A stretch of 30,977 nucleotides of DNA from Clostridia bacterium (GTDB lineage: Bacteria; Bacillota_A; Clostridia; Oscillospirales; CAG-272). The translations under genes and the position numbers were made by a program. This document shows positions 313-20,727 of the stretch, piece after piece (position 1 is the stretch's first letter; every line of letters begins with the position of its first letter). Where the stretch lies: contig JAFTKI010000065.1 of the NCBI GenBank assembly GCA_017453335.1, forward strand, positions 1 to 30,977, given 5' to 3'. The notes beneath the pieces were generated by a model that worked only from the letters and a program-made list of their open reading frames with translations, ran no database searches and was not told the DNA's origin.

Positions 313-1050
313 ATGAAAAAATTGGTGGTAGCCGACTTTGACGGGACGCTGAAGCCTTATAAGGATGCGTTCGTGTCGCAGGCTGTCAAGGATCGGATCG
401 ATGCGCTTTTGGAGAAGGGAATTTATTTTGCGGTTTCCTCGGGAAGAACCTACGGGGAGCTTGCCGCCTTTTTGCCGGACTATATTGATCGGATCTTTTT
501 TATCTGCAACGATGGCGCTTGCTATCTGAAAAACGGAAAGCCTTTGTATGAAAAGCAGATCGAAACCGAGGATCTATTGCGTTTCTTTTCCTGTACAGAA
601 GAGGGGGGCTGTATTTTTCACGGGCTTGATCAAAACTACAGCATCGGTACGGTAGCGTCTGCTTATGCGGAATCCTTTGCGCCCACTCCGATCAAAACCG
701 TATATCAGATCAAGGAAAAGATCTTTAAGGTCACCACGTTTGGAAAAACGGTCACTTTGCCGCAGGGCTGCGGACTTCGCACCCATTGGGACGGCGGCCC
801 CGATCGCTCGGCACAATACGTCAATCGCTTTGTAAGCAAGGGACGGGCGCTGTCTGATCTGCAGATTCGCCTGATGCTGACAAGCTTTGATACCGTTTGT
901 ATCGGAGATGCGGGAAATGATGTTGCCATGATGACGGGAGCCAAATATTCCTTCTGTATCGGAAACCGTTCCCCCGAGCTTTCCGCCGCCTGCAACAAAC
1001 GCGCCGAGCGAATTGAGGATGCCCTTGATTTTTGCTTGAACGAATTCTAA
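313..1050 (+). CDS. Cof-type HAD family phosphatase
   Basis: A 245-residue cytosolic HAD-superfamily hydrolase, probably dephosphorylating small phosphorylated metabolites such as sugar phosphates. Motif I is DFDGTL at residues 8-13 (nucleophile D8, acid/base D10). Motif II is the Ser of VSSGR near residue 42, a Lys lies in the C-terminal VSKGRAL stretch, and motif IV is GDAGNDVAMM near residue 198. The cap between motifs II and III fits the C2B (Cof) type, and the length is slightly below the usual 260-290. It starts at an ATG after AAGGGAAGGA. It has its own promoter and is separated from the BMC operon by P1, so co-regulation is not implied. The substrate cannot be read from the sequence. 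Confidence 0.85.
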   Translation: MKKLVVADFDGTLKPYKDAFVSQAVKDRIDALLEKGIYFAVSSGRTYGELAAFLPDYIDRIFFICNDGACYLKNGKPLYEKQIETEDLLRFFSCTEEGGCIFHGLDQNYSIGTVASAYAESFAPTPIKTVYQIKEKIFKVTTFGKTVTLPQGCGLRTHWDGGPDRSAQYVNRFVSKGRALSDLQIRLMLTSFDTVCIGDAGNDVAMMTGAKYSFCIGNRSPELSAACNKRAERIEDALDFCLNEF

Positions 1051-1121
1051 AACCACATAAAATCAACACAAAACAACAATTTATTTTGGAAAACAAAAGA
1101 AAATCCAAAGTAAATTGTTGT
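1049..1121 (+). promoter_or_regulatory. Phased CAACA-type operator array upstream of P1
   Basis: C(A/C)ACA cores at 1053, 1064 and 1074 are spaced 11 and 10 bp, each preceded by an A-run, and are followed by ATTTATTTTG. A perfect 11-bp inverted copy (ACAACAATTTA at 1073-1083, TAAATTGTTGT at 1111-1121) places a second half-site just upstream of the -35 box. The same phased motif precedes P2 at 5348-5398, so a shared regulator is inferred, most likely the DeoR-family protein encoded at 11689-12447. Confidence 0.65.
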
Positions 1122-1128
1122 TTTTCTA

Positions 1129-1157
1129 TTGACAAACACAGAAAAACATAGTATAAT
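1129..1157 (+). promoter_or_regulatory. Promoter P1 of the GRE-activase operon
   Basis: A perfect consensus promoter: TTGACA at 1129-1134, a 17-bp spacer, TATAAT at 1152-1157. It rules out the in-frame TTG at 1129 as the GRE start and supports the ATG cluster at 1204-1212. Confidence 0.9.
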
Positions 1158-1209
1158 GCAAAATAGAAGATGTATGTCCCAAAAGCGTAAAGGTAAGGAA
1201 GTGATGATG

Positions 1210-3720
1210 ATGTCGGCATACAATAGTACAAGAAGCGCAAAAAGCGATCGAATCGAGCGGCTGAAGGCAGAGCTGTTTCGTCAAATGCCCGCAATCGAGG
1301 CAGACCGTGCAGTTCTTTTGACCGAAAGCTATATGAGAACCGAGGGGGAACCGATGGTCACGCGCCGAGCAAAGGCGTTTGCGAATATCCTGAAGCATAT
1401 TCCGATCACGATCCGTCCCGACGAGCTGATAGTCAGTTCCGCAACGGTGCGCCCGAGAAGCTGTCAGGTATTTCCCGAGTTTTCCTTTGAGTGGCTGGAG
1501 GCTGAGTTCGATACGGTGGAAACCCGTTCGGCAGATCCGTTCTATATCTCCGAGGGAACCAAGAAAACGCTGCACACCGTTTATACATATTGGAAGGGAA
1601 AGACTACCAGCGAGCTGGCGACCTCGATGATCGCACCCGAGGCGCAAAAGGCAATGGATCATAACGTGTTCACGCCCGGAAACTATTTCTACAACGGCGT
1701 GGGACATGTCACCGTTCAATACGATAAGGTGATGGCGATCGGGTATCGCGGCATTATGGAAGAGGTTGTGGCGGAAAAGGCACGCATGAACTTCGGTGAT
1801 GCCGATTACTGCTCCAAAACCGCGCTTTTGGATGCAATTTTGCTTTCCTGTGAAGCGGTGATCGAATATGCCCATCGCTATGCAAGTCTTGCCCGCGAGA
1901 TGGCAAGCGCGGAGAGCGACTCGCGCCGCCGTGCCGAGCTTGAGGCGATTGCCGAGAACTGTACCCGCGTTCCCGAATACGGTGCGCGCAATTTCTACGA
2001 AGCGTGCCAGAGCTTCTGGTTCGTGCAGATGCTTTTGCAAGTAGAGTCGAGCGGACATTCGATCTCCCCCGGGCGCTTTGACCAATATATGTATCCGTAT
2101 TATAAAAACGATATGGAAAGCGGAAAAATCACCAAGGCGTTTGCGCAGGAGCTGATGGATTGTATCTGGATCAAGTTCAACGATCTGAACAAATGCCGTG
2201 ATGCGGCATCCGCGGAGGGCTTTGCGGGATATTCGCTGTTCCAAAATCTGATCGCGGGCGGACAGACACCGAGCGGTGAGGATGCCACAAACGATCTTTC
2301 GTTTATGTGCATCGAGGCAACCATGCATGTGATGCTTCCCGCGCCGTCGTTCTCGGTTCGTGTTTGGAACAAAACGCCGCATGAATTCCTGATCCGTGCT
2401 GCCGAGCTGACGCGGACAGGCGTTGGTTTGCCTGCTTATTATAATGATGAAGTGATCATTCCGTCGCTGATGTCGCGCGGACTGACGCTGGAGGATGCAA
2501 GAGATTATAACATCATCGGTTGCGTGGAGCCTCAAAAGGCGGGAAAGACCTGGGGCTGGCACGATGCGGCATTCTTCAATATGCTCAAGCCGATGGAGCT
2601 GGTATTTTCCAACGGTATGCTTGACGGCGAGCAGGTGGGACTGAAAACAGGCGATGTTTCTTCCTTCACCACCTTTGATGCGTTCTTTGATGCTTATAAA
2701 AAACAAATGGAATATATGATCTCGCTGTTGGTCAATGCCGACAACGCGATCGATGAGGCACACGCGATCCGTTGCCCTCTGCCGTACCTTTCGTGCATGG
2801 TGGACGATTGCATCAAGCGCGGAAAAACACCCGAGCAGGGCGGTGCGGTCTATAATTTCACGGGACCGCAGGGCTTTGGAATTGCCAACGTGGCAGACTC
2901 GCTGTATGCGATCCGCAAGCTGGTTTATGAGGAGCACAGATTTTCGCTGACCGAGCTGCGCGATGCTTTGCAGGCAAACTTCGGCAATGGAACGGTCGAT
3001 GCCGAGAAGATGACCGAAAAGATCGCAAGATCGTTGGCGGCAAGCGGCGTTACACTCAACGAGCGCGTGATCGCCGAGATCTATCGCACCGTAAAGGAGC
3101 GCGGTGGAGACCCGAGATATGCAGAGATCCGTGAGATGATCCTTTCATTGGATGCCTACGGTAACGATATTGCCGAGGTCGATGCCATGGCACGCGAGGC
3201 AGCATATACCTACACCAAGCCGATGCTGAAATACTACAATCCGCGCGGAGGACAGTTCCAGGCAGGTCTGTATCCCGTTTCGGCAAACGTACCGCTTGGT
3301 GCGCAGACGGGAGCAACTCCCGACGGAAGACTGGCGGGAACTCCTGTTGCCGACGGCGTTTCGCCCTCTGCAGGACGTGATGTGTGCGGACCTACCGCGG
3401 CGGCAAACTCGGTTTCCTGCCTTGACCATGGAATCGCTTCCAACGGAACGCTGTTTAATATGAAGTTCCATCCGTCGGCTCTGGCAGGCGAATCGGGACT
3501 TGAAAACTTCGTTGCTTTGGTGCAAACCTATTTTGAAATGAAGGGAAGCCATATGCAGTTCAACGTTGTCAGCCGCGAAACGCTGTACGATGCGCAAAAG
3601 CATCCCGAAAAATACCAAAGCCTCGTGGTCCGCGTTGCAGGCTACAGCGCACTCTTTACCACGCTGTCCAAATCCCTGCAGGATGACATTATCAACCGCA
3701 CTGAGCAAGCGGCGTTCTGA
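1210..3720 (+). CDS. Glycyl radical diol dehydratase-like enzyme (BMC signature enzyme)
   Basis: An 836-residue glycyl radical enzyme closest by eye to B12-independent glycerol/1,2-propanediol dehydratases such as Clostridium butyricum DhaB1. All key residues are recognisable: His166 (GVGHV), His283-Ser284 (GHSIS), thiyl-radical Cys438 and Glu440 in GCVEP, Asp452 (GWHD), and radical Gly811 in RVAGYSALF. It likely dehydrates 1,2-propanediol or a related vicinal diol to an aldehyde inside the BMC. Compared with DhaB1 as I recall it, about 43 residues are inserted near 595-640, including a helix resembling an encapsulation peptide (NERVIAEIYRTVKERGG). The N-terminal extension typical of some BMC-linked GREs is absent. 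Start: ATGs at 1204, 1207 and 1210; AAGGAAG at 1195-1201 favours 1210. It is first in the operon and followed 8 bp later by its activase. Confidence 0.9.
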   Translation: MSAYNSTRSAKSDRIERLKAELFRQMPAIEADRAVLLTESYMRTEGEPMVTRRAKAFANILKHIPITIRPDELIVSSATVRPRSCQVFPEFSFEWLEAEFDTVETRSADPFYISEGTKKTLHTVYTYWKGKTTSELATSMIAPEAQKAMDHNVFTPGNYFYNGVGHVTVQYDKVMAIGYRGIMEEVVAEKARMNFGDADYCSKTALLDAILLSCEAVIEYAHRYASLAREMASAESDSRRRAELEAIAENCTRVPEYGARNFYEACQSFWFVQMLLQVESSGHSISPGRFDQYMYPYYKNDMESGKITKAFAQELMDCIWIKFNDLNKCRDAASAEGFAGYSLFQNLIAGGQTPSGEDATNDLSFMCIEATMHVMLPAPSFSVRVWNKTPHEFLIRAAELTRTGVGLPAYYNDEVIIPSLMSRGLTLEDARDYNIIGCVEPQKAGKTWGWHDAAFFNMLKPMELVFSNGMLDGEQVGLKTGDVSSFTTFDAFFDAYKKQMEYMISLLVNADNAIDEAHAIRCPLPYLSCMVDDCIKRGKTPEQGGAVYNFTGPQGFGIANVADSLYAIRKLVYEEHRFSLTELRDALQANFGNGTVDAEKMTEKIARSLAASGVTLNERVIAEIYRTVKERGGDPRYAEIREMILSLDAYGNDIAEVDAMAREAAYTYTKPMLKYYNPRGGQFQAGLYPVSANVPLGAQTGATPDGRLAGTPVADGVSPSAGRDVCGPTAAANSVSCLDHGIASNGTLFNMKFHPSALAGESGLENFVALVQTYFEMKGSHMQFNVVSRETLYDAQKHPEKYQSLVVRVAGYSALFTTLSKSLQDDIINRTEQAAF

Positions 3721-3728
3721 GGTGCGGA

Positions 3729-4517
3729 ATGGATTACAATATAATTAAAGGAAGAATTTTTGACATTCAGAAGTTCTCCACGCACGACGGTCCCGGAATT
3801 CGCACCATCGTGTTCCTCAAGGGGTGTATCCTGCGGTGTCGGTGGTGCTGTAATCCCGAATCGCAGAGCTATCCCATTCAGAGACTGAAGACGAAAAACG
3901 GGATCAAAACGGTGGGGGAGGACGTGACGGTTGAGGCGGTCATGCAAAAGGTGTTGCGTGATATGCCGTATTACCGCCGAACGGGAGGAGGGCTGACTCT
4001 TTCCGGCGGCGAGGCGCTTTGCCAGACCGAATTCGTCCATGCTCTTTTGACCTATGCCAAGGAGCATGGCTTGAATACCGCTGTGGAAACCACCGCTTGC
4101 TTGCCGTTTGATACGATGATCAAGCCGCATCTTGCGCTTTTGGATCACGTTCTGATGGATATCAAGCACGTGGATTCCGAAAAGCACGAGCGTTTTACGG
4201 GAATGCGCAACGAGCTGATCCTGCAAAACGCAAAAAAGATTGCCGAGAGCGGCGCGCATCTTGTGATCCGCGTACCAACCATCCCCGGCTTTAACGATAC
4301 CGAGGCGGAGATCCGCGCGATCGCCCGCTTTGCCGCATCGTTGCACGGCGTTCGGGAGATCCATCTTTTGCCGTATCACCGATTGGGATACGACAAGTAC
4401 ATGGGGCTTGACCGGGAATACGGCATGGGAGACGTTCCCCCGCCAACTCCCGAGCAGATGGAACGCCTGAGACAGGTTGCCGAATCCGAGGGACTTCGCG
4501 CGATCCTTGGCGGTTAA
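3729..4517 (+). CDS. Glycyl radical enzyme activase (radical SAM)
   Basis: A 262-residue radical SAM protein that would install the Gly811 radical on the upstream GRE. It opens with the activase signature [13 protein letters not shown], then the [4Fe-4S] motif Cys33-x3-Cys37-x2-Cys40 (GCILRCRWC), and later LTLSGGE. C. butyricum DhaB2 and most activases of this branch have a ferredoxin-like insertion of about 50 residues with eight Cys just after the radical SAM motif. Here the chain goes straight from CCNPESQ to a short linker, so the two auxiliary clusters are missing, as in the shorter pyruvate formate-lyase activase type. It begins 8 bp after the GRE stop, so translation is probably coupled. 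Confidence 0.92.
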
Positions 4518-4539
4518 GATCCTTTTTGGAGGAATGAGA

Positions 4540-4908
4540 ATGAATCAGAATTACGAAAACAAGCAACGCATCATTCAGGAGATCGTGCCGGGAAAGCAGA
4601 TCACGCTGGCGCACATCATTGCCAATCCCGATGATACGCTTTATAAAAAACTGGGACTGGATCCCACGGTGGACTATTCCAAGAAATCCGCGATCGGGAT
4701 CGTTACCATGTCGCCGAGCGAATACGCCATCATTGCCGCTGACCTTGCGATGAAGTCTTCGGGGGCAGAGGTCGGCTTTGTGGATCGCTTTTCGGGAACG
4801 CTGATCACGGTCGGAACGGTTTCCGAGGTCGAGGCGGGCTTGCTTGCTGTGGTCGAGTATGCGCAAAATAAGCTCGGCTTTTCGGTTTGCGATATTACGA
4901 AGACCTGA
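4540..4908 (+). CDS. PduU/EutS-like circularly permuted BMC-H shell protein
   Basis: A 122-residue shell protein of the PduU/EutS type. The N-terminal stretch [19 protein letters not shown] matches the beta-barrel-forming segment of PduU, followed by the permuted BMC fold ([32 protein letters not shown], ending CDITKT). The hexamer is expected to tile shell facets with its pore capped by the barrel. The start at 4540 is chosen because GGAGGA at 4528-4533 lies at a good distance; an ATG at 4534 is too close and upstream in-frame codons overlap the activase. It sits with the GRE and activase under P1, apart from the main shell cluster. Confidence 0.9.
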
Positions 4909-4913
4909 CCGAG

Positions 4914-5339
4914 ATGAAGAAAACGATCTTTATCGGGCGAAGCGGCGCGGGAAAGACTACCTTGATCGAGGCTTTGCGCGGCGAGGAGCTGGTCTACCGT
5001 AAAACGCAGGCGATCAGCTACGACAGCGACTTTATGGATACTCCCGGTGAATATGCGGAAGGGAAGGATCTGGGAGGAGCCTTGGCGGTTTACTCCTACG
5101 AAGCCGATGTGGTTGCGTTGGTCATTGATGCGACCGATGGCTACAGCATCTTTCCGCCTGCTTGTGCGGCGGTGGCAAACCGTCCCGTGATCGGTGTGGT
5201 TACCAAGTGCGATGCGCGCGATGCAAGAGCCGATCTTGCCGCCGATTGGTTGCGCCTTTCGGGATGTGAGCCGATCTTTTTTACCTCTTCCCGGGAAAAA
5301 CAGGGGGTCGAAGAGCTGCTTTCTTACCTGAATTCTTGA
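4914..5339 (+). CDS. EutP/PduV-like small GTPase
   Basis: A 141-residue P-loop protein with Walker A GRSGAGKTT near residues 8-16, a DTPGEY switch-II-like motif, and TKCD for guanine recognition. EutP/PduV proteins accompany many BMC loci; PduV has been linked to BMC positioning or movement, and the exact role is unclear. The ATG at 4914 lies 5 bp after the shell-gene stop, so coupling is likely; no strong ribosome binding site is seen. It is the last gene before P2. I see no intervening hairpin terminator, so P1 transcripts may read into the next group. Confidence 0.88.
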   Translation: MKKTIFIGRSGAGKTTLIEALRGEELVYRKTQAISYDSDFMDTPGEYAEGKDLGGALAVYSYEADVVALVIDATDGYSIFPPACAAVANRPVIGVVTKCDARDARADLAADWLRLSGCEPIFFTSSREKQGVEELLSYLNS

Positions 5340-5347
5340 AAAACGAT

Positions 5348-5398
5348 AAAAACAACACAAAAACAACATAAAAACAAAGAAAAACAACATTTATTTTG
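5348..5398 (+). promoter_or_regulatory. Phased AAAAACAACA operator array upstream of P2
   Basis: Four tandem direct repeats of A-run plus CAACA have cores at 5353, 5364, 5375 (variant CAAAG) and 5385, spaced 11, 11 and 10 bp. All lie on one face of the helix and are followed by TTTATTTTGC. Arrangement and flank match the array before P1. Tandem direct repeats of about 11 bp are known for DeoR-family regulators such as IolR. Binding by the DeoR-like protein at 11689-12447 is inference. Confidence 0.7.
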
Positions 5399-5407
5399 CA
5401 AAAACTA

Positions 5408-5436
5408 TTGACAAAACCAAAAGACAGTGGTATGAT
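5408..5436 (+). promoter_or_regulatory. Promoter P2 of the aldolase-shell operon
   Basis: TTGACA at 5408-5413, a 17-bp spacer and TATGAT at 5431-5436, shortly downstream of the CAACA array and ahead of an AAGGAG ribosome binding site near 5478. It shares the local sequence CTATTGACA with P1. Confidence 0.88.
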
Positions 5437-5494
5437 ATAGGAGTAAAAGCAAAAAAACGCAAATCCGAATTGAAACGAAAAGGAGATCAGAACA

Positions 5495-6304
5495 ATGTCT
5501 GAATACGAAATCAAAAAACAAATTTGTGAAATCGGTAAAAGAATCTACGACAAGGGAATGGTTGCCTCCAACGACGGTAACATTTCCGTAAAGCTGAACG
5601 ACAATGAATTCCTCTGCACTCCTACCGGTGTATCCAAGGGCTTTATGACTCCCGAATACATCTGTAAGGTTGATGCAAACGGAAATGTCATTCAGGCAAA
5701 CGAGGGCTTCAGACCTTCCTCCGAGATCAAGATGCACATGAGAGTGTACAAGGAAAGACCCGACGTTAAGAGCGTTGTTCACGCACATCCTCTGTACGCA
5801 ACCAGCTTTGCAATCGCAGGTATTCCGTTGACCGAGCCGATCATGCCCGAGGCAGTAATCGCGCTGGGCTGTGTTCCGATCGCCGAGTACGGTACTCCCT
5901 CCACCGAGGAAATCCCCGATGCTGTTTCCAAGTATCTGCAGCACTTTGATGCCGTACTGCTTGCAAACCACGGCGCGCTGTCTTTCTCCGACAGCCTCCT
6001 CAATGCATATCACAAGATGGAGTCGGTTGAGTTCTACGCACAGCTGATGTATCAGGCAAAGATGCTGGGCGGTCCCAAGCAGCTTTCCAACGCACAGGTA
6101 CAAAGACTGTACGAGATCAGACGTCAGTTCGGTCTGAAGGGTAAGCATCCCGCTGATATCTGCCCCAACGCAAAGCAGGGTAAGCCCAGCTGCCACACCT
6201 GCGGTGTTCAGACCGGTGACTTCTGCGGCGGTGCAGGTGCTGCCTCCGAGGAGGACGTGATCGCTGAGATCACCAGAAAGGTTCTTGCCGCTCTCGGTAA
6301 ATAA
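5495..6304 (+). CDS. Class II aldolase (L-fuculose-phosphate type) with C-terminal encapsulation peptide
   Basis: A 269-residue Zn-dependent class II aldolase/adducin-family protein. Predicted metal and catalytic residues are Glu77 (SSEIKMH), His96 and His98 (HAHPLY) and His159 (ANHG). The family cleaves L-fuculose- or L-rhamnulose-1-phosphate to DHAP plus lactaldehyde. The C terminus is extended by about 50 residues: a linker with four Cys (223, 233, 236, 244), a Gly/Ala stretch, then the amphipathic helix EEDVIAEITRKVLAALGK, a typical encapsulation peptide. The enzyme is therefore expected to work in the lumen and feed lactaldehyde to the dehydrogenases. No fucose or rhamnose isomerase or kinase is in the window. 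First gene after P2. Confidence 0.9.
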   Translation: MSEYEIKKQICEIGKRIYDKGMVASNDGNISVKLNDNEFLCTPTGVSKGFMTPEYICKVDANGNVIQANEGFRPSSEIKMHMRVYKERPDVKSVVHAHPLYATSFAIAGIPLTEPIMPEAVIALGCVPIAEYGTPSTEEIPDAVSKYLQHFDAVLLANHGALSFSDSLLNAYHKMESVEFYAQLMYQAKMLGGPKQLSNAQVQRLYEIRRQFGLKGKHPADICPNAKQGKPSCHTCGVQTGDFCGGAGAASEEDVIAEITRKVLAALGK

Positions 6305-6310
6305 TTTCGG

Positions 6311-6814
6311 ATGAGTACCGATATTGAAGCGTTGGTTCGGCGCGCGGTCAGTGAGCTTTACGCAAAGCCGACGGGGCAGAATCAAGAAAAGAAAAAAATC
6401 GAAAGCATATCACTCGCAGATGCCAAGCTGCTTGCCGAGCGCGTAGAGGCAAAGGCAAGGGAAATGGGTGTTTGCGCGGTGGTCGCTATTGCCGATGAGG
6501 GCGGAAATCTCAAGCTGTGCGAGTGCATGGACAACTCCTATCTCGCCAGTCGGGATATTGCCATCAACAAGGCATATACATCGGTAGCACTCAAGATGTC
6601 AACGGCAAAGCTGGCAACGCTGGCGGCTCCGGGAGGCCCTCTTTACGGAATCGAGAATACCAATCAAGGTCGAATTGTGATCTTTGGCGGGGGAGATTTC
6701 TTAGAGACTCGCGGAAAGATCCTTGGCGGACTTGGTGTCAGCGGTGGCAGTGCCGAGCAGGATACCGCGCTTTCGGCTTACGGTAAAAAAGTATTCGGAG
6801 AGCTTTTTGTATAA
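6311..6814 (+). CDS. PduO C-terminal/GlcG-like (DUF336) protein with N-terminal encapsulation peptide
   Basis: A 167-residue protein whose body (from about residue 30) is a GlcG/HbpS/PduO-C domain: VVAIADEGGNLKLCE, SRDIAINKAYTSVALKM, GGPLYGIENT and GGLGVSGGSAEQD. Domains of this family bind heme or corrinoid-like ligands in PduO and HbpS; the ligand here is unknown. The first 19 residues, MSTDIEALVRRAVSELYAK, form an amphipathic helix followed by a polar linker, so it is a predicted lumen protein. The adenosyltransferase half of PduO is absent, as expected in a B12-independent locus. It starts 6 bp after the aldolase stop without a clear ribosome binding site. A redox or heme-delivery role beside PduS is possible. 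Confidence 0.85.
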   Translation: MSTDIEALVRRAVSELYAKPTGQNQEKKKIESISLADAKLLAERVEAKAREMGVCAVVAIADEGGNLKLCECMDNSYLASRDIAINKAYTSVALKMSTAKLATLAAPGGPLYGIENTNQGRIVIFGGGDFLETRGKILGGLGVSGGSAEQDTALSAYGKKVFGELFV

Positions 6815-6840
6815 AAGGCTCTTACAGAAAGGATAACGAA

Positions 6841-8037
6841 ATGACAGAACAGGAAAGAATTGAAGCCATCGTACGCCAGGTGGTCGCAGGAATGAAGGGT
6901 GGCAACGCAGGCGGTGCGGCAAAGGCTTCGGGTTCGATTCCCAAAACCTCGCGTGTGGCTCTTTTGACCGAAAAGGAAAAGTTTGAGATCCGCGAATATC
7001 CCATTCCCGAGATCGGGGACGACGATATTCTGGTCAAAATGGAAGGCTGCGGCGTTTGCGGAACCGACGCGCACGAATTCAAGCGCGATCCCTTCGGTCT
7101 GATCCCTGTTGTTCTCGGACATGAGGGAACGGGTGAGATCGTGAAGATCGGTAAGAACGTGACCAAGGATAGCGCGGGCAAGGCTTTGGGACTGGGTGAC
7201 AAGGTGGTCACCTGCATGATCTTCAAGGACAACCCCGACATTACGATGTTCGACCTGAACAAGCAGAACGTGGGCGGTGCAGACGTTTACGGTCTGTTGC
7301 CCGATGATGACGTACATCTGAACGGCTGGTATGCCGATTATATCGTGATCCGTAAGGGCTCGACCGTGTTTAACGTCAGCCACCTGGATCTTGATTCCAG
7401 AATTCTGATCGAGCCGAGTGCCGTGCTGATCCATGCGGTCGAGCGTGCAAAAACAACGGGGATTCTTCGTTTCAATTCCCGTGTTGCGGTACAGGGATGT
7501 GGTCCGATCGGACTGTTGTGCATCGCAGTGCTTCGCACAATGGGAATTGAGAACATCACGGCGGTAGACGGCAACGAGCAGCGCTTGGAATTTGCCAAGC
7601 TGATGGGTGCCGATCACACCGTAAACTTCAAAAACTATAAGGACCGTGATGCTCTGGCAGAAGCTGTGAAGGAATCCTTCGGTGGCTATTATGCCGATTT
7701 TGGGTTCCAATGCACAGGTTCTCCCGTGGCACATGCCAATATTTATAAGTTTATCCGCAACGGCGGCGGACTTTGCGAGCTTGGCTTCTTTATCAACGGC
7801 GGCGATGCAACCATCAACCCGCACTTTGATATCTGCGCCAAGGAAATTACATTGGTTGGATCCTGGGTATACACGTTGCGTGACTATGCCACCACCTTTG
7901 ATTTCCTCAAGCGCGCAAAGGCAATCGGACTTCCCTTGGAAAAGCTGATTACGCACAAGTTCCATCTGGCAGACGCAAACGAGGCACTTCAAACCAATCT
8001 CCGTCAGGACGGCTTGAAGATCGCTATCATCCCGTAA
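6841..8037 (+). CDS. Zn-dependent alcohol dehydrogenase (MDR) with N-terminal encapsulation peptide
   Basis: A 398-residue medium-chain dehydrogenase. Residues 1-19 (MTEQERIEAIVRQVVAGMK) are an encapsulation-type amphipathic helix, followed by a Gly/Ala linker to about residue 32. Catalytic zinc ligands are Cys73 (GVCGTD) and His94-Glu95 (GHEG). The Rossmann motif GCGPIG is at 219-224, with AVDGN at the following strand, suggesting NAD(H). The four-Cys structural zinc lobe is missing and replaced by a longer loop (about 124-145), unlike the second Zn dehydrogenase at 15960. It probably interconverts aldehydes and alcohols in the lumen, for example lactaldehyde/1,2-propanediol or propanal/propanol. 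Direction and substrate are inferred from context only. Good ribosome binding site AGAAAGGA. Confidence 0.88.
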   Translation: MTEQERIEAIVRQVVAGMKGGNAGGAAKASGSIPKTSRVALLTEKEKFEIREYPIPEIGDDDILVKMEGCGVCGTDAHEFKRDPFGLIPVVLGHEGTGEIVKIGKNVTKDSAGKALGLGDKVVTCMIFKDNPDITMFDLNKQNVGGADVYGLLPDDDVHLNGWYADYIVIRKGSTVFNVSHLDLDSRILIEPSAVLIHAVERAKTTGILRFNSRVAVQGCGPIGLLCIAVLRTMGIENITAVDGNEQRLEFAKLMGADHTVNFKNYKDRDALAEAVKESFGGYYADFGFQCTGSPVAHANIYKFIRNGGGLCELGFFINGGDATINPHFDICAKEITLVGSWVYTLRDYATTFDFLKRAKAIGLPLEKLITHKFHLADANEALQTNLRQDGLKIAIIP

Positions 8038-8049
8038 GCGAGGTAGCGT

Positions 8050-8364
8050 ATGCGACAGGCAGTTGGAATCATTGAGGTTTATGGCTTGGTTGCCGCATTT
8101 GCCGCTTGTGATGCAGGCTGCAAGGCTGCCAACGTGACTGTTGAACCGTTTGATAAAAACAGACCCTTTGGCAAAGAGGATATTCCGGTACCGCTTTTGG
8201 TGCTTGTAAAGTTCCGCGGAAGCGTGGAAAACGTTACGGCGGCGGTTGAGGCGGCTGAGGCGGCCGCAAACAGGATCAGCGGAGTATCGTCAAAGCATAT
8301 TATATCGGTTGTAGAGGACGGGGCAGAGGCAATGCTTCATCTCAACGCATTCGATAAAACCTAA
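8050..8364 (+). CDS. Divergent BMC-H shell protein
   Basis: A 104-residue single BMC-domain protein (AVGIIEVYGLVAAFAACDAGCKAANV at the start, SVENVTAAVEAAEAAANRI later). The loop that lines the hexamer pore in canonical BMC-H proteins (KIGSG) is replaced by a longer segment, DKNRPFGKEDIPVPLL, and the C terminus is extended (AEAMLHLNAFDKT). Pore size and charge should differ from the neighbouring shell proteins, suggesting a specialised channel or minor facet component. It begins 12 bp after the Zn-ADH stop, with GAGG at the expected distance. Confidence 0.88.
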   Translation: MRQAVGIIEVYGLVAAFAACDAGCKAANVTVEPFDKNRPFGKEDIPVPLLVLVKFRGSVENVTAAVEAAEAAANRISGVSSKHIISVVEDGAEAMLHLNAFDKT

Positions 8365-8406
8365 AAAAAGAAAAATAAAACATATAAAATTTGGAGGTAT
8401 TGAAAA

Positions 8407-8682
8407 ATGGCACAGGAATCTCTCGGAATGATCGAGACCAGAGGCTTGACCGCAGCGATTGAGGCTGCAGATGCAATGGTAAAAGCAGCAGAGGTAACTC
8501 TCGTTGGAACCGAAAAGATCGGTTCTGGCTTGGTATCGGTTATGGTACGCGGCGATGTTGGCGCTGTAAAGGCTGCTGTTGAGGCAGGCTCTGCGGCTGC
8601 AAGCAGACTTGGCGAGGTTATCGCAACGCACGTTATTCCCAGACCCCACGCAGATGTGGAAAAGATCCTTCCCAAAATCTAA
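8407..8682 (+). CDS. Canonical BMC-H shell protein, copy 1
   Basis: A 91-residue PduA/EutM-like hexameric shell protein with the standard pore loop [10 protein letters not shown] and the C-terminal [15 protein letters not shown]. It is close to 90 percent identical to the product at 9086-9364. A strong GGAGG ribosome binding site after an A-rich leader (8365-8395) suggests high expression, as expected for the main facet protein. Confidence 0.95.
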
Positions 8683-8703
8683 TCTCAATTTGGAGACGAC
8701 AGC

Positions 8704-8997
8704 ATGAAATCCCTGGGATTTATCGAGGTGTCCGGTGTCGTTGCGGCGGTGGATGCACTCGACGTAATGTGTAAGAGCTCGGCAGTTGAGTTCGTTACAT
8801 GGGAAAGAAAGCTGGGCGGCAGAATGGTCACGATTGTGATCAGCGGCTCGGTTTCGGACGTCACCGAAGCCATCGAGTGCGCAAAGCGCAACGCTTGTGC
8901 GCCGATCATGGCTTCCAACGTCATTGCAAACCCGCATGATGAGACGGTTCGCTTGGTCAATCTGAGCGCATCGCGTCTTGCAAAAAAGACAAAGTGA
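8704..8997 (+). CDS. BMC-H shell protein with Arg-containing pore loop and basic tail
   Basis: A 97-residue BMC-domain protein ([28 protein letters not shown]). The pore-loop equivalent is [10 protein letters not shown] rather than KIGSGLVSV, putting an Arg at or next to the pore, which would favour anionic solutes. The C terminus ends in a basic tail ([10 protein letters not shown]). It lies between the two near-identical canonical BMC-H genes. The ATG follows GGAG, 21 bp after the previous stop. Confidence 0.9.
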
Positions 8998-9085
8998 GGG
9001 ACGAGTAATGGCAACGAAAAAGGCAACAGCCTCCCCTGCAAAGTCCTTGCAGACGGAGCAAAAAAAAGAAAAGGAGATACATACA

Positions 9086-9364
9086 ATGGTACAGCAGGCA
9101 TTAGGTATGGTTGAGACTCGCGGTCTCGTTGCAGCAATCGAGGCAGCAGACGCAATGGTTAAGGCAGCAAACGTTGAGCTCGTAGGCACCGAGAAGATCG
9201 GTTCGGGCTTGGTATCGGTTATGGTACGCGGCGACGTTGGCGCTGTAAAGGCAGCCGTTGAGACCGGTGCGGCAGCAGCATCCTCTTTGGGCGAAGTGAT
9301 CGCAACTCACGTGATCCCCAGACCCCATGCAGATGTAGAGAAGATTCTCCCTGCATTGAAGTAA
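9086..9364 (+). CDS. Canonical BMC-H shell protein, copy 2 (possible N-terminally extended form)
   Basis: A 92-residue PduA/EutM-like shell protein with pore loop [10 protein letters not shown] and the same [15 protein letters not shown] end as the copy at 8407. The start at 9086 follows AAGGAG at 9071-9076, the best ribosome binding site. An in-frame ATG at 9008 after GAGGGACGAG would add 26 residues rich in Lys, Ala, Thr and Ser, so two forms may be made from one gene. It is the last gene before a 142-bp region with competing hairpins. Confidence 0.93.
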
Positions 9365-9388
9365 GAGAGAAAGACTCGCAAGAGGAAA

Positions 9389-9470
9389 CCGACGGGGCAG
9401 AGCCCCGTCGGGCTCTGCGGCTTTTACGCGGTCTATTAAATTTTGATGGATGGCGTAAAAATCGCAGAAC
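9389..9470 (+). promoter_or_regulatory. Nested alternative RNA hairpins between BMC-H and BMC-P genes
   Basis: Three hairpins compete. A pairs CCGACGGGG (9389-9397) with CCCCGTCGG (9403-9411). B pairs GCAGAGCCC (9397-9405) with GGGCTCTGC (9410-9418). C pairs 9412-9429 with 9453-9470, an 18-position stem with about two mismatches. A and C are adjacent and compatible, while B excludes both. The layout resembles an attenuator, but no hairpin is followed by a long U-tract. A role in tuning expression or mRNA processing between the abundant hexamer and the scarce pentamer is inference. Confidence 0.6.
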
Positions 9471-9506
9471 AGTTTCACAATCGATTGATTCGGGAAAGGA
9501 ACGGAT

Positions 9507-9758
9507 ATGGTAATCGGAAAAGTGGTGGGCAGTATTATTGCCACCAGAAAAAATGAAAAGCTCGTTGGACAAAAGCTGTTGGTGGTTCGTCCCTTGGAGA
9601 GCATGGAAGAAAAAATGGAATTTGTTGCGATCGACAACGTGGGTGCCGGAATCGGAGAAACGGTTTTGGTAGCGCGCGGATCGGCTGCACGGATCGGCTG
9701 CTCGCTGGAGAATGCCCCCGTAGATGCCGCTATTGTCGGAATCGTAGATGAAGCGTGA
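9507..9758 (+). CDS. BMC-P (EutN/CcmL family) vertex protein
   Basis: An 83-residue EutN/CcmL/PduN-family protein (MVIGKVVGSIIATRKNEKLVGQ, VAIDNVGAGIGETVLVARGSAAR, AAIVGIVDEA). Such proteins form pentamers that close the vertices of the polyhedral shell and are needed in few copies. It is the only BMC-P in the window, enough for shell closure. AAAGGA precedes the ATG. It lies downstream of the alternative hairpins at 9389-9470. Confidence 0.95.
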   Translation: MVIGKVVGSIIATRKNEKLVGQKLLVVRPLESMEEKMEFVAIDNVGAGIGETVLVARGSAARIGCSLENAPVDAAIVGIVDEA

Positions 9759-9783
9759 AGCTCCCGAAAGGAAGGATTGAACA

Positions 9784-11112
9784 ATGGATATGAATACCTT
9801 TGGCGCAATTATGCGCGAGGCGGGTGTGGTTGGCGCCGGCGGCGCGGGATTTCCGTCTTATGCAAAACTGAATCAAGCGGCAGATACGATTATTCTTAAC
9901 TGTGCCGAGTGTGAGCCTTTGTTGAAGCTCCACCGTCAAGTGTTGGCGCGCTATGCAAAAGAGATCATGATGACCTTGGAGGAGATCGCGGATACGATCG
10001 GTGCCGAGCAGGTGATCATCGCGGTCAAGCATGCGTATACCGAGGCTGTTGAGGCAGTCAAGGCACATCTGGGCGAGTTCAAAAAGACCAAGATCGGCTT
10101 GTTGCCCGAGATCTATCCCGCTGGCGACGAGGTCGTTACGATCTACGAGACCACGGGGCGCGTGGTCAATCCGGGTGCGCTTCCGATCACGGTCGGTTGC
10201 ATTGTGTACAACGTGGAAACCATCTACAATGCATATCGCGCATGGAAGGAAAATGCTCCCGTAACCCATAAATACATCACGATCGCGGGTGAGGTGCAGA
10301 ATCCCTGCACGCTCAAGGCTCCCTTGGGCATCACTTACGGAGAACTGCTGGCAATGGCAGGCGGTGCTACCTGTCCCGATCCCGTTTTGATCGCGGGCGG
10401 ACCCATGACGGGCGGAATCGCAGGCATGGGAGACGTGGTGACCAAGACCTCGAATGCAATCCTTGTGATGCCGAGAAACGCATACATCGTACAAAAGCGT
10501 GTAACTCCCGTGAAGATCAACACCAAGCGTGCAATGGCGGCTTGCTGTCAGTGCAGAATGTGTACCGATCTTTGCTCCCGTAATCTGTTGGGACATCCCA
10601 TCGAGCCGCATAAGCTGATGCGTGCGATCGCTTCGGGCAGTGTGTCTGATCAAGCGGCACTTCTGAATGCTTATTCCTGCTCCTCCTGCGGACTTTGCGA
10701 AATGTATGCCTGCGGACAGAGTCTGAATCCCAGAACCCTGATCAACGAGATCAAGGGCGAGCTTCGCAAGAACGGAGTGGCACCCTTGCGCGGATTGCAG
10801 GCGGCTCCCGTGAATTCCACGCGCGAATACCGCAAGGTTCCCATGTCGCGACTGATCGCAAGACTGGGACTTGGAAAATATGATAAGCCTGCTCCCATCG
10901 TGGATGTGGAGATCAGCTCCAAGCGCTTGAAAATCAAGCTGGGGCAGAGCATCGGTGCGCCGAGTGTCTGCTGTGTTAGCGTTGGCGACCGTGTCAATGC
11001 AGGCGACGTGCTGGGCAAGTTTACCCCCGATAAGCTGGGTACCTCGGTACACGCTCCCATGAACGGTACCGTGATAGAGGTCAACGATCAGTTCGTGATC
11101 CTCGAAGCGTAA
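9784..11112 (+). CDS. PduS-like RnfC-family Fe-S flavoprotein
   Basis: A 442-residue RnfC/PduS-family electron-transfer protein. GAGGAGFP at 17-24 and CAECEPLL are the N-terminal nucleotide/FMN-binding signatures. GGPMTGG lies in the SLBB-adjacent region. Two [4Fe-4S] motifs follow: Cys254-x2-257-x2-260-x3-264 and Cys299-x2-302-x2-305-x4-310, the last with a 4-residue gap instead of the usual 3. The C-terminal part (about 370-442) is a barrel-sandwich domain. In Pdu systems PduS is a cobalamin reductase that interacts with PduT. The signature enzyme here needs no B12, so a general electron conduit is more likely. It is encoded directly before the PduT-like BMC-T. Confidence 0.92.
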   Translation: MDMNTFGAIMREAGVVGAGGAGFPSYAKLNQAADTIILNCAECEPLLKLHRQVLARYAKEIMMTLEEIADTIGAEQVIIAVKHAYTEAVEAVKAHLGEFKKTKIGLLPEIYPAGDEVVTIYETTGRVVNPGALPITVGCIVYNVETIYNAYRAWKENAPVTHKYITIAGEVQNPCTLKAPLGITYGELLAMAGGATCPDPVLIAGGPMTGGIAGMGDVVTKTSNAILVMPRNAYIVQKRVTPVKINTKRAMAACCQCRMCTDLCSRNLLGHPIEPHKLMRAIASGSVSDQAALLNAYSCSSCGLCEMYACGQSLNPRTLINEIKGELRKNGVAPLRGLQAAPVNSTREYRKVPMSRLIARLGLGKYDKPAPIVDVEISSKRLKIKLGQSIGAPSVCCVSVGDRVNAGDVLGKFTPDKLGTSVHAPMNGTVIEVNDQFVILEA

Positions 11113-11133
11113 TTGTAAGGAAGGACGAAGCGT

Positions 11134-11685
11134 ATGTTGAATAAAGCAATAGGCATGGTAGAATATCAGACCGTATCCTCGGGTATCACCGCGGCGGATC
11201 TGATGGTGAAAACGGCAAACGTGGAGGTGCTTCAATCCTCTGTTGTATGTCCCGGTAAATATATCATTATCATCAGCGGTGAGCTGTCGGCGATCAGCGC
11301 GGCAATCGATGCCGCAAAGGTTCAGCTTGGCGAAAAGCTGACCGACTCCTTCGTGCTGGGCAATCCCCACGGTGATATTTTTCCCGCGATCTACGGCGGC
11401 GCACCTGTGGAAAACGCAAAGGCATTGGGTGTGTTGGAGACCTTCTCCGCGCCTGCGATCATCGTAGCGGCTGATACTGCGGCAAAGACCAGCGAGGTCT
11501 CGCTGATCGAATTGCGCATTGCAAGAGGTATGTGCGGAAAATCTTATATGCTCCTCACGGGTGACGTTGCGGCGGTCAGCGCGGCAATCGAGGCGGCAAA
11601 GGCTAAGATCGGTGCCGAGGGCTTGCTGCTTGACAGCTCGGTGATCCCGAATCCCGACAAGTCTCTTTGGGACAGCATTCTGTAA
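11134..11685 (+). CDS. PduT-like tandem-domain BMC-T shell protein
   Basis: A 183-residue protein with two BMC domains (about 1-90 and 96-183) forming trimeric pseudohexamers. The first-domain pore loop reads VVCPGKY with Cys39, equivalent to the Cys of PduT that binds a [4Fe-4S] cluster at the pore, so an electron-conducting pore is predicted. The second-domain loop has another Cys (Cys134, RGMCGKSY) near the same position. Genes for PduS-like and PduT-like proteins are adjacent (21 bp), consistent with a transmembrane-like redox relay across the shell. Strong ribosome binding site AAGGAAGGA. Confidence 0.93.
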   Translation: MLNKAIGMVEYQTVSSGITAADLMVKTANVEVLQSSVVCPGKYIIIISGELSAISAAIDAAKVQLGEKLTDSFVLGNPHGDIFPAIYGGAPVENAKALGVLETFSAPAIIVAADTAAKTSEVSLIELRIARGMCGKSYMLLTGDVAAVSAAIEAAKAKIGAEGLLLDSSVIPNPDKSLWDSIL

Positions 11686-11688
11686 GCG

Positions 11689-12447
11689 ATGTTACCGATT
11701 GAAAGAAGAAGTGTGATCCTGCAGCAGCTGATGATGGACGGAAAGGTCGTGGTCAGCGAGCTTGCGGAGAAATATGATGTTACCGAGGAGACCATCCGCC
11801 GCGATCTGGAAAAGCTGGAAGCCGACGGATATGCAAAAAAGACCTACGGCGGCGCGATACGCAGTGATAACAATACGGTAGAGCTTCCGTATACGGTGCG
11901 TAAACAGACCAACGTTAGCGGAAAGAAGTATATTGCCGAAATCATCGGTCGTCTGATCAATGACGGCGACAGTCTGCTTTTGGATGCCAGTACCACGGCG
12001 TTGTTTACGGTAAAAAGCATTTTCTCCAAGAAGAATATTAAGATCGTGACCAATTCCGTTGGTATTTTGTTGGATCTTCCACAGGATCAGGGTTGGAGCG
12101 TACAAGCTACGGGTGGCTCATATCATAGTGAATCAATGTCCTTTTTCGGATATGCAGCACAGGAGGTTGTGGAGAAATTCTATGCCGAATATGCCATCCT
12201 TTCATGCAAGGGCGTGGACATGGAAAAGGGGATCACGGATACGCGTGAGGTTTTTGCCGAATTAAAGAAATCCTTTTTCAAATCGGCAAAAAAGGTGATC
12301 CTCGCAGTTGACCACACAAAATTTGACCGTATTTCCTACGTTCGCATTGGAGACTTTGAAGGGGTTGACATTGTGGTCACCGATGTGGAGCCGAGCGACG
12401 AATGGAAGGCCCTGTTTGAAAAGAAGGGAATAGAGCTTTATTATTAA
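11689..12447 (+). CDS. DeoR-family transcriptional regulator, probable BMC-locus repressor
   Basis: A 252-residue DeoR/GlpR-type regulator. The N-terminal helix-turn-helix spans about 20-55 (VSELAEKYDVTEETIRRDLEKLEADG) with the family's KTYGGA turn. The C-terminal DeoRC domain has LLLDASTTALF, IVTNSVG and the CKGVD/ILAVDHTKF segments, the sugar-phosphate sensing fold. Its effector is probably a phosphorylated intermediate such as a ketose-1-phosphate or DHAP. It begins 3 bp after the BMC-T stop without a good ribosome binding site, so it should be translated by coupling and autoregulated through P2. It is the best candidate to bind the phased CAACA arrays before P1 and P2. Confidence 0.9.
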   Translation: MLPIERRSVILQQLMMDGKVVVSELAEKYDVTEETIRRDLEKLEADGYAKKTYGGAIRSDNNTVELPYTVRKQTNVSGKKYIAEIIGRLINDGDSLLLDASTTALFTVKSIFSKKNIKIVTNSVGILLDLPQDQGWSVQATGGSYHSESMSFFGYAAQEVVEKFYAEYAILSCKGVDMEKGITDTREVFAELKKSFFKSAKKVILAVDHTKFDRISYVRIGDFEGVDIVVTDVEPSDEWKALFEKKGIELYY

Positions 12448-12466
12448 GAATAGTTGAGGAACGAAA

Positions 12467-13612
12467 ATGAACGTATTTCAATTAAAGCCGCGTGTCTGTT
12501 TTGGAGAGAATTCTCTGGATGCACTGAAGGAATTGAAGGCACAAAACGCTGTGATCTTCACCGATGGATTTATGTATAAATCGGGAACTGCCGACCGTAT
12601 TGCCGCGACCATGACGGGATGCGGACAGATCAAGATTTTTTCCGAGATCAAGCCGGATCCTCCTGTTGAGTTGATTGCCGATGCATTGCGCTTTTTGTTG
12701 GACTCCAACGCCGAGCTTGCTGTGGCACTTGGCGGAGGCTCGGTAATCGATGCGGCAAAGGCAACTCTTTGGATGTATCAGAAAAAAACGGGAAATAAGC
12801 TTCCCCTGATCGCGCTTCCCACCACCAGCGGAACGGGAAGTGAGGTTACGCAGTTTTCGGTGATCACCGACCGTGATCTGGGCATGAAATATCCGCTTTA
12901 TTCCGAGGATATGTTGCCCGATATCGCCATTCTTTCGGCAGAACTGACGGTCAGTGTGCCCGCAAATATTACAGCAGACACGGGATTTGACGTGATCACG
13001 CACGCGCTGGAGGCGTATATTTCTACAAAAGCCAACGACTTTACCGATGCACTTGCAGAAAAGGCACTCAAGCTTGCGTTTGAATATTTGCCCACGGCTT
13101 GCAAGAACGGAAAAGATACCGTGGCACGCGAGAAAATGCACACGGCATCTTGCTTGGCAGGTATGGCGTTTAATGACGTTAGTCTTGGTGTGAACCACGC
13201 GATCGCACACGCATTGGGCGCAACCTTCCATATTCCTCACGGCCGTGCCAACGCGCTGATTTTGCCGCATGTGATGCGCTACAACGCATCGTTGGAAACT
13301 ACGGGCTATGGAAGTGAGGTAACTCCAACCTGCAAAAAGCTGGCAGAAATTGCGAGAATGATCGGATTGCCCGCGCAAAACGCACGCATGGGAGCTTCCA
13401 ATCTGGTAGCACACATCACGCGCATGAGCCGTGAGCTGGGAATTCCGCAGTCGCTGGGTGACGCAGGCGTTACGCGCGCCGATTACCTGAGCAACAAGGC
13501 GCACATTCTCAAAAATGCCGCCAAGGATGTAACAGCCCTGACCAACCCGCGTCCCATCGACGAGGCTGCCGTAGAGCAGATCGTAAAGGGAATTGAAAAA
13601 TTTAAAGCATAA
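12467..13612 (+). CDS. Iron-containing alcohol dehydrogenase (PduQ/FucO-like)
   Basis: A 381-residue group III Fe-ADH. The NAD-binding GGGSVID is at 89-95 and PTTSGTGSEVT at about 118-128. Predicted Fe ligands are Asp175, His179 (FDVITHALEAY), His244 (GVNHA) and His258 (PHG). Members reduce propanal to 1-propanol (PduQ) or lactaldehyde to 1,2-propanediol (FucO). No encapsulation peptide is visible at either end, unlike the Zn-ADH. It is last in the P2 operon and followed by a strong hairpin. In this locus without an aldehyde dehydrogenase it would be the second NADH-consuming step, or a cytosolic counterpart of the lumen ADH. Confidence 0.9.
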   Translation: MNVFQLKPRVCFGENSLDALKELKAQNAVIFTDGFMYKSGTADRIAATMTGCGQIKIFSEIKPDPPVELIADALRFLLDSNAELAVALGGGSVIDAAKATLWMYQKKTGNKLPLIALPTTSGTGSEVTQFSVITDRDLGMKYPLYSEDMLPDIAILSAELTVSVPANITADTGFDVITHALEAYISTKANDFTDALAEKALKLAFEYLPTACKNGKDTVAREKMHTASCLAGMAFNDVSLGVNHAIAHALGATFHIPHGRANALILPHVMRYNASLETTGYGSEVTPTCKKLAEIARMIGLPAQNARMGASNLVAHITRMSRELGIPQSLGDAGVTRADYLSNKAHILKNAAKDVTALTNPRPIDEAAVEQIVKGIEKFKA

Positions 13613-13619
13613 TAGAAAA

Positions 13620-13648
13620 AAGACAGGCACCCATCGGGTGCCTGTCTT
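13620..13648 (+). terminator. Hairpin terminator after the BMC operon
   Basis: A perfect 13-bp stem (13620-13632 with 13636-13648, loop ATC) eight bases after the Fe-ADH stop, flanked by an A-run on the left. The right flank is only moderately T-rich, so it may work better on the minus strand or act bidirectionally. Confidence 0.75.
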
Positions 13649-14782: not shown

Positions 14783-14827
14783 TCCTATTGACAATTATAT
14801 CAAACTTTGATATAATTGTCAATAGGA
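14783..14827. promoter_or_regulatory. Perfectly symmetrical superimposed divergent promoters/ROK operator
   Basis: A 45-bp palindrome: 22-bp arms (14783-14804 and 14806-14827) around a single central base, with no mismatch. The plus strand reads TTGACA (14788-14793), 17 bp, TATAAT (14811-14816). The minus strand has the identical promoter (TTGACA complement at 14817-14822, TATAAT complement at 14794-14799). The -10 of each abuts the -35 of the other, so two polymerases cannot bind together. It serves the UlaG-like gene (minus) and the ROK operon (plus), and is likely the ROK operator. Confidence 0.9.
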
Positions 14828-14838
14828 AGGATGAAAAA

Positions 14839-15930: not shown

Positions 15931-15959
15931 GAATCTTTATAAAAATGAGGTAATTGAAA

Positions 15960-16979: not shown

Positions 16980-16980
16980 T

Positions 16981-18375: not shown

Positions 18376-18378
18376 AAA

Positions 18379-20624: not shown

Positions 20625-20636
20625 TCAGATTACAGC

Positions 20637-20677
20637 AAACGAGGAGCCCTTCCCATGTTGGGAAGGGCTCCTCGTTT
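20637..20677 (+). terminator. Strong terminator between the dehydrogenase operon and uxuA
   Basis: A perfect 19-bp stem (20637-20655 with 20659-20677, loop TGT) starting with AAAC and ending with GTTT. It lies between convergent genes and probably terminates both. About 20 bp further is the TCAAGCTTTTTT stretch shared with the repeat element at 13.7 kb. Confidence 0.85.
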
Positions 20678-20727
20678 ACAGTGTTTCCAAAAACATTTTG
20701 TCAAGCTTTTTTCATGTTTGATACCGT

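Follow-up and report, generated by a model that had tools for sequence, protein, structure and literature searches.

Catabolic bacterial microcompartments (BMCs) are usually described as aldehyde disproportionators, whose acylating aldehyde dehydrogenase (ALDH) and alcohol dehydrogenase keep NAD(H) cycling within the shell. Microcompartments of the GRM5 class are described with an ALDH (PMC5311937, PMC3557285), and formation of propanol and propionate from fucose or rhamnose has been reported for the GRM5-bearing Clostridium phytofermentans (PMC3557285). Here we analyse a 30,977-base stretch (51% G+C) of the Clostridia bacterium contig JAFTKI010000065.1, hereafter the window, which carries a single gene cluster at about 1050-13612, on the + strand throughout and with unrelated genes on either side. 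The cluster is an intact GRM5-type (fucose/rhamnose, 1,2-propanediol dehydratase) microcompartment operon, in which we looked for the oxidative arm, defined as a PduP-type acylating dehydrogenase plus PduL, with acetate kinase in some relatives. We think it probable that the locus encodes a GRM5-derived fucose/rhamnose microcompartment without this ATP-yielding arm, with an Fe-dependent alcohol dehydrogenase (Fe-ADH) in its slot, that takes lactaldehyde to 1-propanol.

Every named gene of the cluster is open and in the same orientation (Table 1). The inventory given in a preliminary description of this DNA was recovered in full: glycyl radical enzyme (GRE), activase, aldolase, Zn-dependent alcohol dehydrogenase (Zn-ADH), Fe-ADH, a protein like the C-terminal part of PduO, PduS, PduT and seven shell genes in total. 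The same description had supposed that this might be a GRE locus of unassigned function, which is not the case, because the enzyme matches a solved diol dehydratase: its best solved match is 5i2a, with 1271 bits over residues 3-833, close enough to rule out a GRE of unknown function. We take 5i2a to be the diol dehydratase of Roseburia inulinivorans. Residues 592-637 of the window's enzyme align with 5i2a and form a stretch missing from 1r8w and 9rco; an internal insertion is a feature of the 1,2-propanediol dehydratase group, and the Roseburia inulinivorans enzyme has been assigned to a GRM5 locus (PMC6325248). The activase (262 amino acids) lacks the ferredoxin-like insertion, its main profile match beginning at profile position ~91-103, and a short activase is described as peculiar to GRM5 (PMC6325248). 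The further GRM5 features, namely a class II aldolase, a DUF336 protein, a DeoR regulator, PduS and PduT, are all present; apart from the oxidative arm, the locus is fully GRM5.

Four PduP-type, four PduL and one AckA protein from relatives were used as tblastn queries against the whole window. No PduP, PduL or AckA was found there (best E = 0.13), and the same queries recovered all three genes in the relative G001 (G and L numbers denote related genomes and loci). Curated cut-offs are exceeded by the ALDHs of L013, G001 and G011 (NF011927) and by the PduL of L013 (NF011652). The search thus bore out the earlier statement that the locus holds no PduP-type dehydrogenase, PduL or acetate kinase, and it ruled out a hidden, frameshifted or remnant copy of any of them in the window; the GRM5 hallmarks PduP-type ALDH and PduL are accordingly missing from it. 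Truncation was ruled out as the cause, since the cluster lies inside the window between unrelated genes. In four relatives (G087, G088, G089 and G091) everything from GRE to Fe-ADH likewise stands on a single contig, followed by unrelated genes.

The place of the Fe-ADH becomes clear from the relatives. Of 212 loci confirmed in a scan with the GRE, 80 were kept, and a common gene order runs through many of them. Whole assemblies were searched for a PduP-type ALDH for 40 of the 80, and slot and PF00171 analyses covered 16 of those 40. The window's Fe-ADH occupies the slot that holds ackA-pduP in G001 and G006: deoR is followed in G001 by ackA, the PduP-type ALDH and pduL, and in G006 by ackA and an ALDH inside which the contig ends. 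The ALDH directly follows deoR in L024, L043, L052, L055 and L060, and follows pduT elsewhere. A PduP-type ALDH was found in 31 of the 40 searched genomes and not in nine (G002, G004, G005, G007-G010, G021 and G039); in eight of these nine the gene next after deoR is an Fe-ADH, the exception being G039, whose locus is cut and in which no Fe-ADH was seen. Among 63 genomes of G005's family, ten carry the Fe-ADH, always adjoining pduT or deoR. Seven of them were newly found, four without a PduP-type ALDH (G087, G088, G089 and G091) and three with it on other contigs (G093-G095). A wider draw of 394 genomes from G007's order gave seven Fe-ADH loci at E <= 1e-110, all already known.

In the resulting 17 Fe-ADH genomes, the gene stands next after deoR (G002, G004, G005, G007-G011, G021 and G093-G095) or next after pduT (G037, G087, G088, G089 and G091), and it is the last recognised cluster gene except in G037, where an ALDH follows. 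The PduP-type ALDH was not found in 12 of the 17, lies on another contig in four, which form one Fe-ADH clade, and is adjacent in G037. The absence is thus conserved in syntenic loci, 12 relatives combining an Fe-ADH after deoR or pduT with no detectable PduP-type ALDH. Another Fe-ADH arrangement occurs in Sporanaerobium hydrogeniformans (L012, a record not labelled as a metagenome-assembled genome): GRE, activase, pduU, eutP, one BMC-H, pduS, pduT and an Fe-ADH (48%), with no aldolase or Zn-ADH in that locus.

The history of the slot was read from a GRE tree (86 rows, FastTree) and an Fe-ADH tree (18 rows, IQ-TREE). On the GRE tree the ALDH-free Fe-ADH state appears in at least three places and needs six changes, at least four of them forced by starred branches. 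The window falls in a starred clade of eight rows with L001-L007, in which L002, L004, L005 and L007 have the Fe-ADH without ALDH, and L001 and L006 have ackA-pduP. In the Fe-ADH tree the window joins the ALDH-free G002, G004, G005 and G007 at 100/99, and the clade with the ALDH on another contig is separate at 100/100. Because of these placements in the two trees, the Fe-ADH is probably the older state in this clade and ackA-pduP-pduL was probably regained in the lineage of L001 and L006, a direction that we infer from the topologies. Over 43 rows, ALDH is absent from 12 of 17 with the Fe-ADH and from none of 26 without it (Fisher p = 4e-7). The states were entered by hand; in many of the 26 Fe-ADH-free rows the lack of an Fe-ADH was scored from the locus or from deoR-ALDH order, and in cut loci it was assumed. 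These rows leave out the window, the loci of unsearched genomes, L003 (main locus cut, its ALDH located beside another deoR on a separate contig), L078 (partial GRE), G095 (no GRE on the contig) and L076 (locus cut, neither ALDH nor Fe-ADH), whose inclusion would give 1 of 27 Fe-ADH-free rows without ALDH. L012 (G012) counts among the 17 Fe-ADH rows but not among the 17 Fe-ADH genomes, and G095 among the genomes but not the rows; both sets divide into 12 without ALDH and five with it.

Several observations weigh against a microcompartment that has truly dispensed with its oxidative arm. Kinship leaves two to three independent pairs in the above comparison, at which the association is not significant. 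The single row nearest to the window by GRE is L001, which has ackA-pduP-pduL, and the window's Fe-ADH sits on a long branch (0.43). An Fe-ADH does not exclude an ALDH, because both occur in G037, side by side, and in G012, a looser 18th case with a less complete locus, where the Fe-ADH follows pduT and the ALDH lies elsewhere. A same-strand gene follows the Fe-ADH in 10 of the 17 genomes, so the gene is not proven to end the operon there: an amidohydrolase gene in G002, SseB-like genes in G004 and G005, a response regulator in G007, an MFS gene in G010, a CmpB-like gene in G021, Mntp in G087, and untyped genes in G088, G089 and G091. In G037 the gene that follows is the ALDH. The following genes are on the other strand in G008, G009, G011, G093 and G094, and, outside G037, no aldehyde dehydrogenase was seen among the typed genes downstream. 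The relatives are drafts, and recA falls below its cut-off in G021. Finally, the absence covers the window only, and a pduP gene may lie elsewhere in its genome.

That last point leads to the alternative of ordinary GRM5 metabolism, with acylating dehydrogenase and PduL encoded elsewhere in the window's genome and entering the same shell. The window covers only part of that genome, and such an arrangement exists: G011, G093 and G094 each have a separate contig that unites ALDH, PduL and a BMC gene, CAACA-kind repeats precede the ALDH in all three (in G011 as the exact CAACACAAAACAACA), and in G095, where the Fe-ADH contig stops 107 bases past the gene, ALDH pieces and PduL lie on other contigs. 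An ALDH elsewhere under the CAACA operator was the very case that the preliminary description had named as contradicting it; it is real in this sister clade, and no PduP-type ALDH was found in the window's own Fe-ADH clade. We therefore consider a distant oxidative arm unlikely for the window, given the grouping of its Fe-ADH with G002, G004, G005 and G007, all of which have recA and none of which has a detectable PduP-type ALDH, and the firm separation of the other clade. As a separate observation, the ALDH and PduL genes of G003 (L110) neighbour a deoR that resembles the window's at just 44% and has no adjacent pduT or pduS; they lie on a different contig from the 81% GRE locus of G003, and represent a second locus or mis-binning.

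Draft gaps are unlikely to be the whole cause of the absence in relatives: of the 12 ALDH-free genomes, 11 have recA above its cut-off and all have L-rhamnose isomerase (RhaA), with fucose isomerase (FucI) in nine. No BMC-type PduL turned up in any of the 12; eight have only a 48-53% relative (146-163 bits), of a kind that most ALDH-bearing genomes contain as well, as a second copy, and four have none. Because of the recA, RhaA and PduL results, the absence of the ALDH is, as judged from these assemblies, very probably real in most of the 12. PF00171 in eight of them comprises AdhE-length frames, frames of 407-436 amino acids, called ProA from their length only, and one further kind in G002, G005 and G009, typed in G005, where benzaldehyde dehydrogenase was nearest, below the model cut-off.

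These frames bear on a second alternative, in which AdhE or a non-acylating aldehyde dehydrogenase acts in the cytosol on propanal that has left the shell, acylating or oxidising it, so that propionate is still made. AdhE-length proteins in seven of the 12 (G002, G007, G009, G010, G021, G088 and G091) count in its favour and against a purely reductive route. The further dehydrogenase just mentioned also favours this alternative. Yet AdhE was not found at E <= 1e-20 in the other five (G004, G005, G008, G087 and G089), hits equal in length and score to the further dehydrogenase also occur in the PduP-bearing G001 and G003, and such a route would defeat aldehyde retention, all of which makes cytosolic propionate formation improbable.

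A reductive route through the microcompartment might proceed as follows. The aldolase would split L-rhamnulose- or L-fuculose-1-phosphate into dihydroxyacetone phosphate (DHAP) and L-lactaldehyde, the tagged Zn-ADH would reduce lactaldehyde to 1,2-propanediol, the GRE would convert the diol to propanal, and the Fe-ADH, the Zn-ADH or both would reduce propanal to 1-propanol, NADH being assumed as donor for both reductases. The two reductions would consume the one NADH released when the triose is oxidised and the one NADH equivalent from the oxidation of pyruvate. By our own calculation, C6H12O5 -> C3H8O + C2H4O2 + CO2 is a balanced equation that needs neither H2 nor propionate, provided that the oxidised triose half ends as acetate and CO2. 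Each sugar would then yield about 2 ATP, whereas the disproportionating version would give about 2.5 and one H2 (or formate). In the five rhaA surroundings read, rhaA adjoins an FGGY kinase gene in four (G005, G007, G009 and G010) and not in G089; the best match of the G009 kinase is rhamnulokinase, slightly under the cut-off. No match to the window's aldolase was seen beside rhaA in these surroundings, where the other neighbours are untyped; DHAP and lactaldehyde would then come from the BMC aldolase. The all-reductive route from lactaldehyde to propanol proposed in the preliminary description remains the simplest reading, and the ALDH-free state recurs in genomes equipped for rhamnose and mostly for fucose; the inward NADH relay attached to it fares less well (see below). 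A fuller proposal, to which we give somewhat less than an even chance, is a pure electron-sink metabolosome: reducing power would enter, no acyl-CoA or ATP would be made, and rhamnose or fucose would be converted quantitatively to 1-propanol, with acetate and CO2 formed in the cytosol. The slot downstream of deoR would be an evolutionary switch between a reductive module (Fe-ADH) and an oxidative one (ackA-pduP-pduL), thrown on more than one occasion and probably turned back in the lineage of L001 and L006.

Which enzymes would work in the lumen depends in part on encapsulation. The tags of the Zn-ADH, the HbpS protein and the aldolase are putative, being recognised by position and pattern. 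Aldolase and Zn-ADH do carry terminal extensions, as does HbpS; the helical moments of the three tails are not significant, the observed value being reached by 315 (Zn-ADH), 512 (HbpS) and 199 (aldolase) of 2000 shuffles, compared with 27 of 2000 for the ALDH of L013. The Fe-ADH has no long terminal extension and may act in the cytosol, a further point against the proposed route; its C-terminal tail scores about like that of HbpS (0.40 vs 0.41). Its closest match among solved structures is the alcohol dehydrogenase domain of AdhE (317 bits), with lactaldehyde reductase at 165 bits, and on alignment it retains what we take to be the metal-ligand motifs of its family. The Fe-ADH could thus be a cytosolic lactaldehyde reductase, leaving the Zn-ADH, whose C. 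phytofermentans counterpart has been proposed as a propanol dehydrogenase (PMC3557285), as sole luminal reductase, with 1,2-propanediol and propanol both excreted and the change mainly supplying 1,2-propanediol, but the lower score of the lactaldehyde reductase match and a tagged aldolase that should release lactaldehyde inside the shell make this very unlikely.

The preliminary description also held that luminal NADH would have to be regenerated from outside by an inward-directed PduS/PduT relay. A need to import reducing power is not peculiar to the variant, because by our bookkeeping even the canonical GRM5 lumen lacks enough NADH when the reduction of lactaldehyde takes place there. The relay itself is doubtful: PduS and PduT occur in 57 of 57 surveyed GRM5 loci, a PduS of the PDU type oxidises NADH, and a PduT cluster of that type lies at +99 mV (PMC6325248), far too positive for NAD+ reduction. 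A more likely role for PduS and PduT than the reduction of NAD+ is to reduce the activase or to take part in redox exchange generally. The variant nevertheless constrains their role, as an export-only electron relay would be purposeless where no luminal step makes NADH.

Two promoters and a terminator had been described for the cluster. Both promoters stood, with 12/12 and 11/12 matches to the sigma-70 consensus: the first lies before GRE, activase, the EutS/PduU-like shell gene and eutP, the second before aldolase, DUF336, Zn-ADH, four BMC-H, BMC-P, pduS, pduT, deoR and Fe-ADH; promoter-like sites in the region number 18, vs 12.0 (standard deviation 3.9) in shuffles. The terminator did not: the hairpin directly after the Fe-ADH stop is strong (-24.5 kcal/mol, z -5.7), but no T run follows it on the + strand, and terminator-like sites in the region do not exceed chance (14 vs 15.3). 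Because its T tail is on the - strand, the hairpin is well suited to stop leftward transcription; for this operon it is no more than a possible end, and a firm terminator after the Fe-ADH was dropped. The Fe-ADH start lies 19 bases downstream of the deoR stop, a gap that makes co-transcription of the two likely. A repeat, CAACACAAA(A)ACAACA, precedes both promoters. As an operator it is not significant in the window alone, where a loose pattern gave three matches vs 1.1 expected and 8 of 100 shuffles reach three. CAACA-like repeats occur 5' of GRE in L001, L004, L005 and L006, and with the pattern used were not seen there in L002, L003 and L007-L010. The loci L107, L138 and L139 are satellite ALDH-BMC-PduL cassettes of the sister clade, with upstream CAACA-type repeats like those at the window's promoters.

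Table 1. Positions of the cluster genes and of candidate regulatory elements in the window.
Feature	Position	Strand	Remarks
CAACA-type direct repeat	1064..1078	+	candidate operator 5' of promoter 1
Promoter 1	1129..1157	+	TTGACA-17-TATAAT
Glycyl radical 1,2-propanediol dehydratase (GRE)	1204..3720	+	internal insertion at ~residues 592-637; start picked among ATG codons at 1204-1210
GRE-activating radical SAM enzyme	3729..4517	+	short form
EutS/PduU-like BMC shell protein	4534..4908	+	
EutP/PduV family GTPase	4914..5339	+	above curated cut-off of TIGR02528
CAACA-type direct repeat	5353..5368	+	candidate operator 5' of promoter 2
Promoter 2	5408..5436	+	TTGACA-17-TATGAT
Class II (fuculose/rhamnulose-phosphate-type) aldolase	5495..6304	+	C-terminal extension of encapsulation-peptide type
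HbpS/DUF336 (PduO C-terminal-like) protein	6311..6814	+	N-terminal extension
Zn-dependent medium-chain alcohol dehydrogenase (Zn-ADH)	6841..8037	+	N-terminal extension of encapsulation-peptide type
BMC-H shell protein 1	8050..8364	+	
BMC-H shell protein 2	8407..8682	+	EutM-like
BMC-H shell protein 3	8704..8997	+	
BMC-H shell protein 4	9008..9364	+	EutM-like; lysine-rich N-terminal extension
BMC-P vertex protein	9507..9758	+	
PduS-type RnfC-like flavo-Fe/S oxidoreductase	9784..11112	+	
PduT-type tandem BMC-T shell protein	11134..11685	+	pore motif CPGKY (motif from PMC6325248)
DeoR-family regulator	11689..12447	+	
Fe-dependent alcohol dehydrogenase (Fe-ADH)	12467..13612	+	
Strong hairpin	13620..13648	-	T tail on - strand

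BMC-H proteins 2 and 4 share 89% identity across 89 residues. Upstream of the GRE, an HAD-IIB phosphatase at 313-1050 possibly belongs to the pathway; it has counterparts at that place in L003, L004, L005 and L007 (46-54% identity) and more distant matches in other loci. Beyond the BMC operon, a sugar-acid-like cluster (14788-25643) holds a ROK-type regulator, a Zn-ADH, an FGGY kinase, two tandem mannitol-1-phosphate-dehydrogenase-like genes, UxuA (on the - strand), a GPH symporter and a beta-glucuronidase-like hydrolase. Between a metallo-beta-lactamase-fold gene (13931-14755, - strand) and the ROK-type regulator, two perfect (12/12) sigma-70-type promoters overlap on opposite strands at 14788-14822, as a near-palindromic divergent promoter.

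As a naturally conserved form lacking the oxidative half, the variant offers a test of whether a luminal cycle is needed at all and of the way in which reducing power gets across the shell. It would also imply that some bacteria dispose of deoxyhexose electrons as 1-propanol instead of H2 or formate, and could serve propanol production as a natural design. GRM5 itself is known. We found no description of an ALDH-free GRM5 in the literature excerpts, which do not extend to the supplementary tables of the surveys, where such loci may be listed; the variant is thus apparently undescribed. Among the other classes, PVM and PVM-like loci have a class II aldolase and a DeoR regulator in common with the window, and the PVM-like signature pairs that aldolase with an ALDH (PMC4207490, PMC8156839), whereas the window has GRE and activase and no ALDH. 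BMCs with neither an ALDH nor a defining feature are placed in the survey class BUF (PMC8217296, PMC4207490); the window's locus likewise has no ALDH, but, unlike in BUF, a signature enzyme and a class of substrate can be named for it, and its remainder is GRM5. The GUF or GRMguf loci are GRE-associated, as is this one (classes in PMC6325248), whose GRE matches a solved diol dehydratase. From the GRM5 loci of Roseburia inulinivorans and Clostridium phytofermentans the locus differs by the Fe-ADH after deoR and the lack of a PduP-type ALDH or PduL in the window; it shares with them the GRE dehydratase, short activase, class II aldolase, DUF336 protein, medium-chain (MDR) Zn-ADH, PduU/PduN/PduS/PduT-type genes, DeoR regulator and a similar gene order (PMC3557285 Table 1, PMC4207490).

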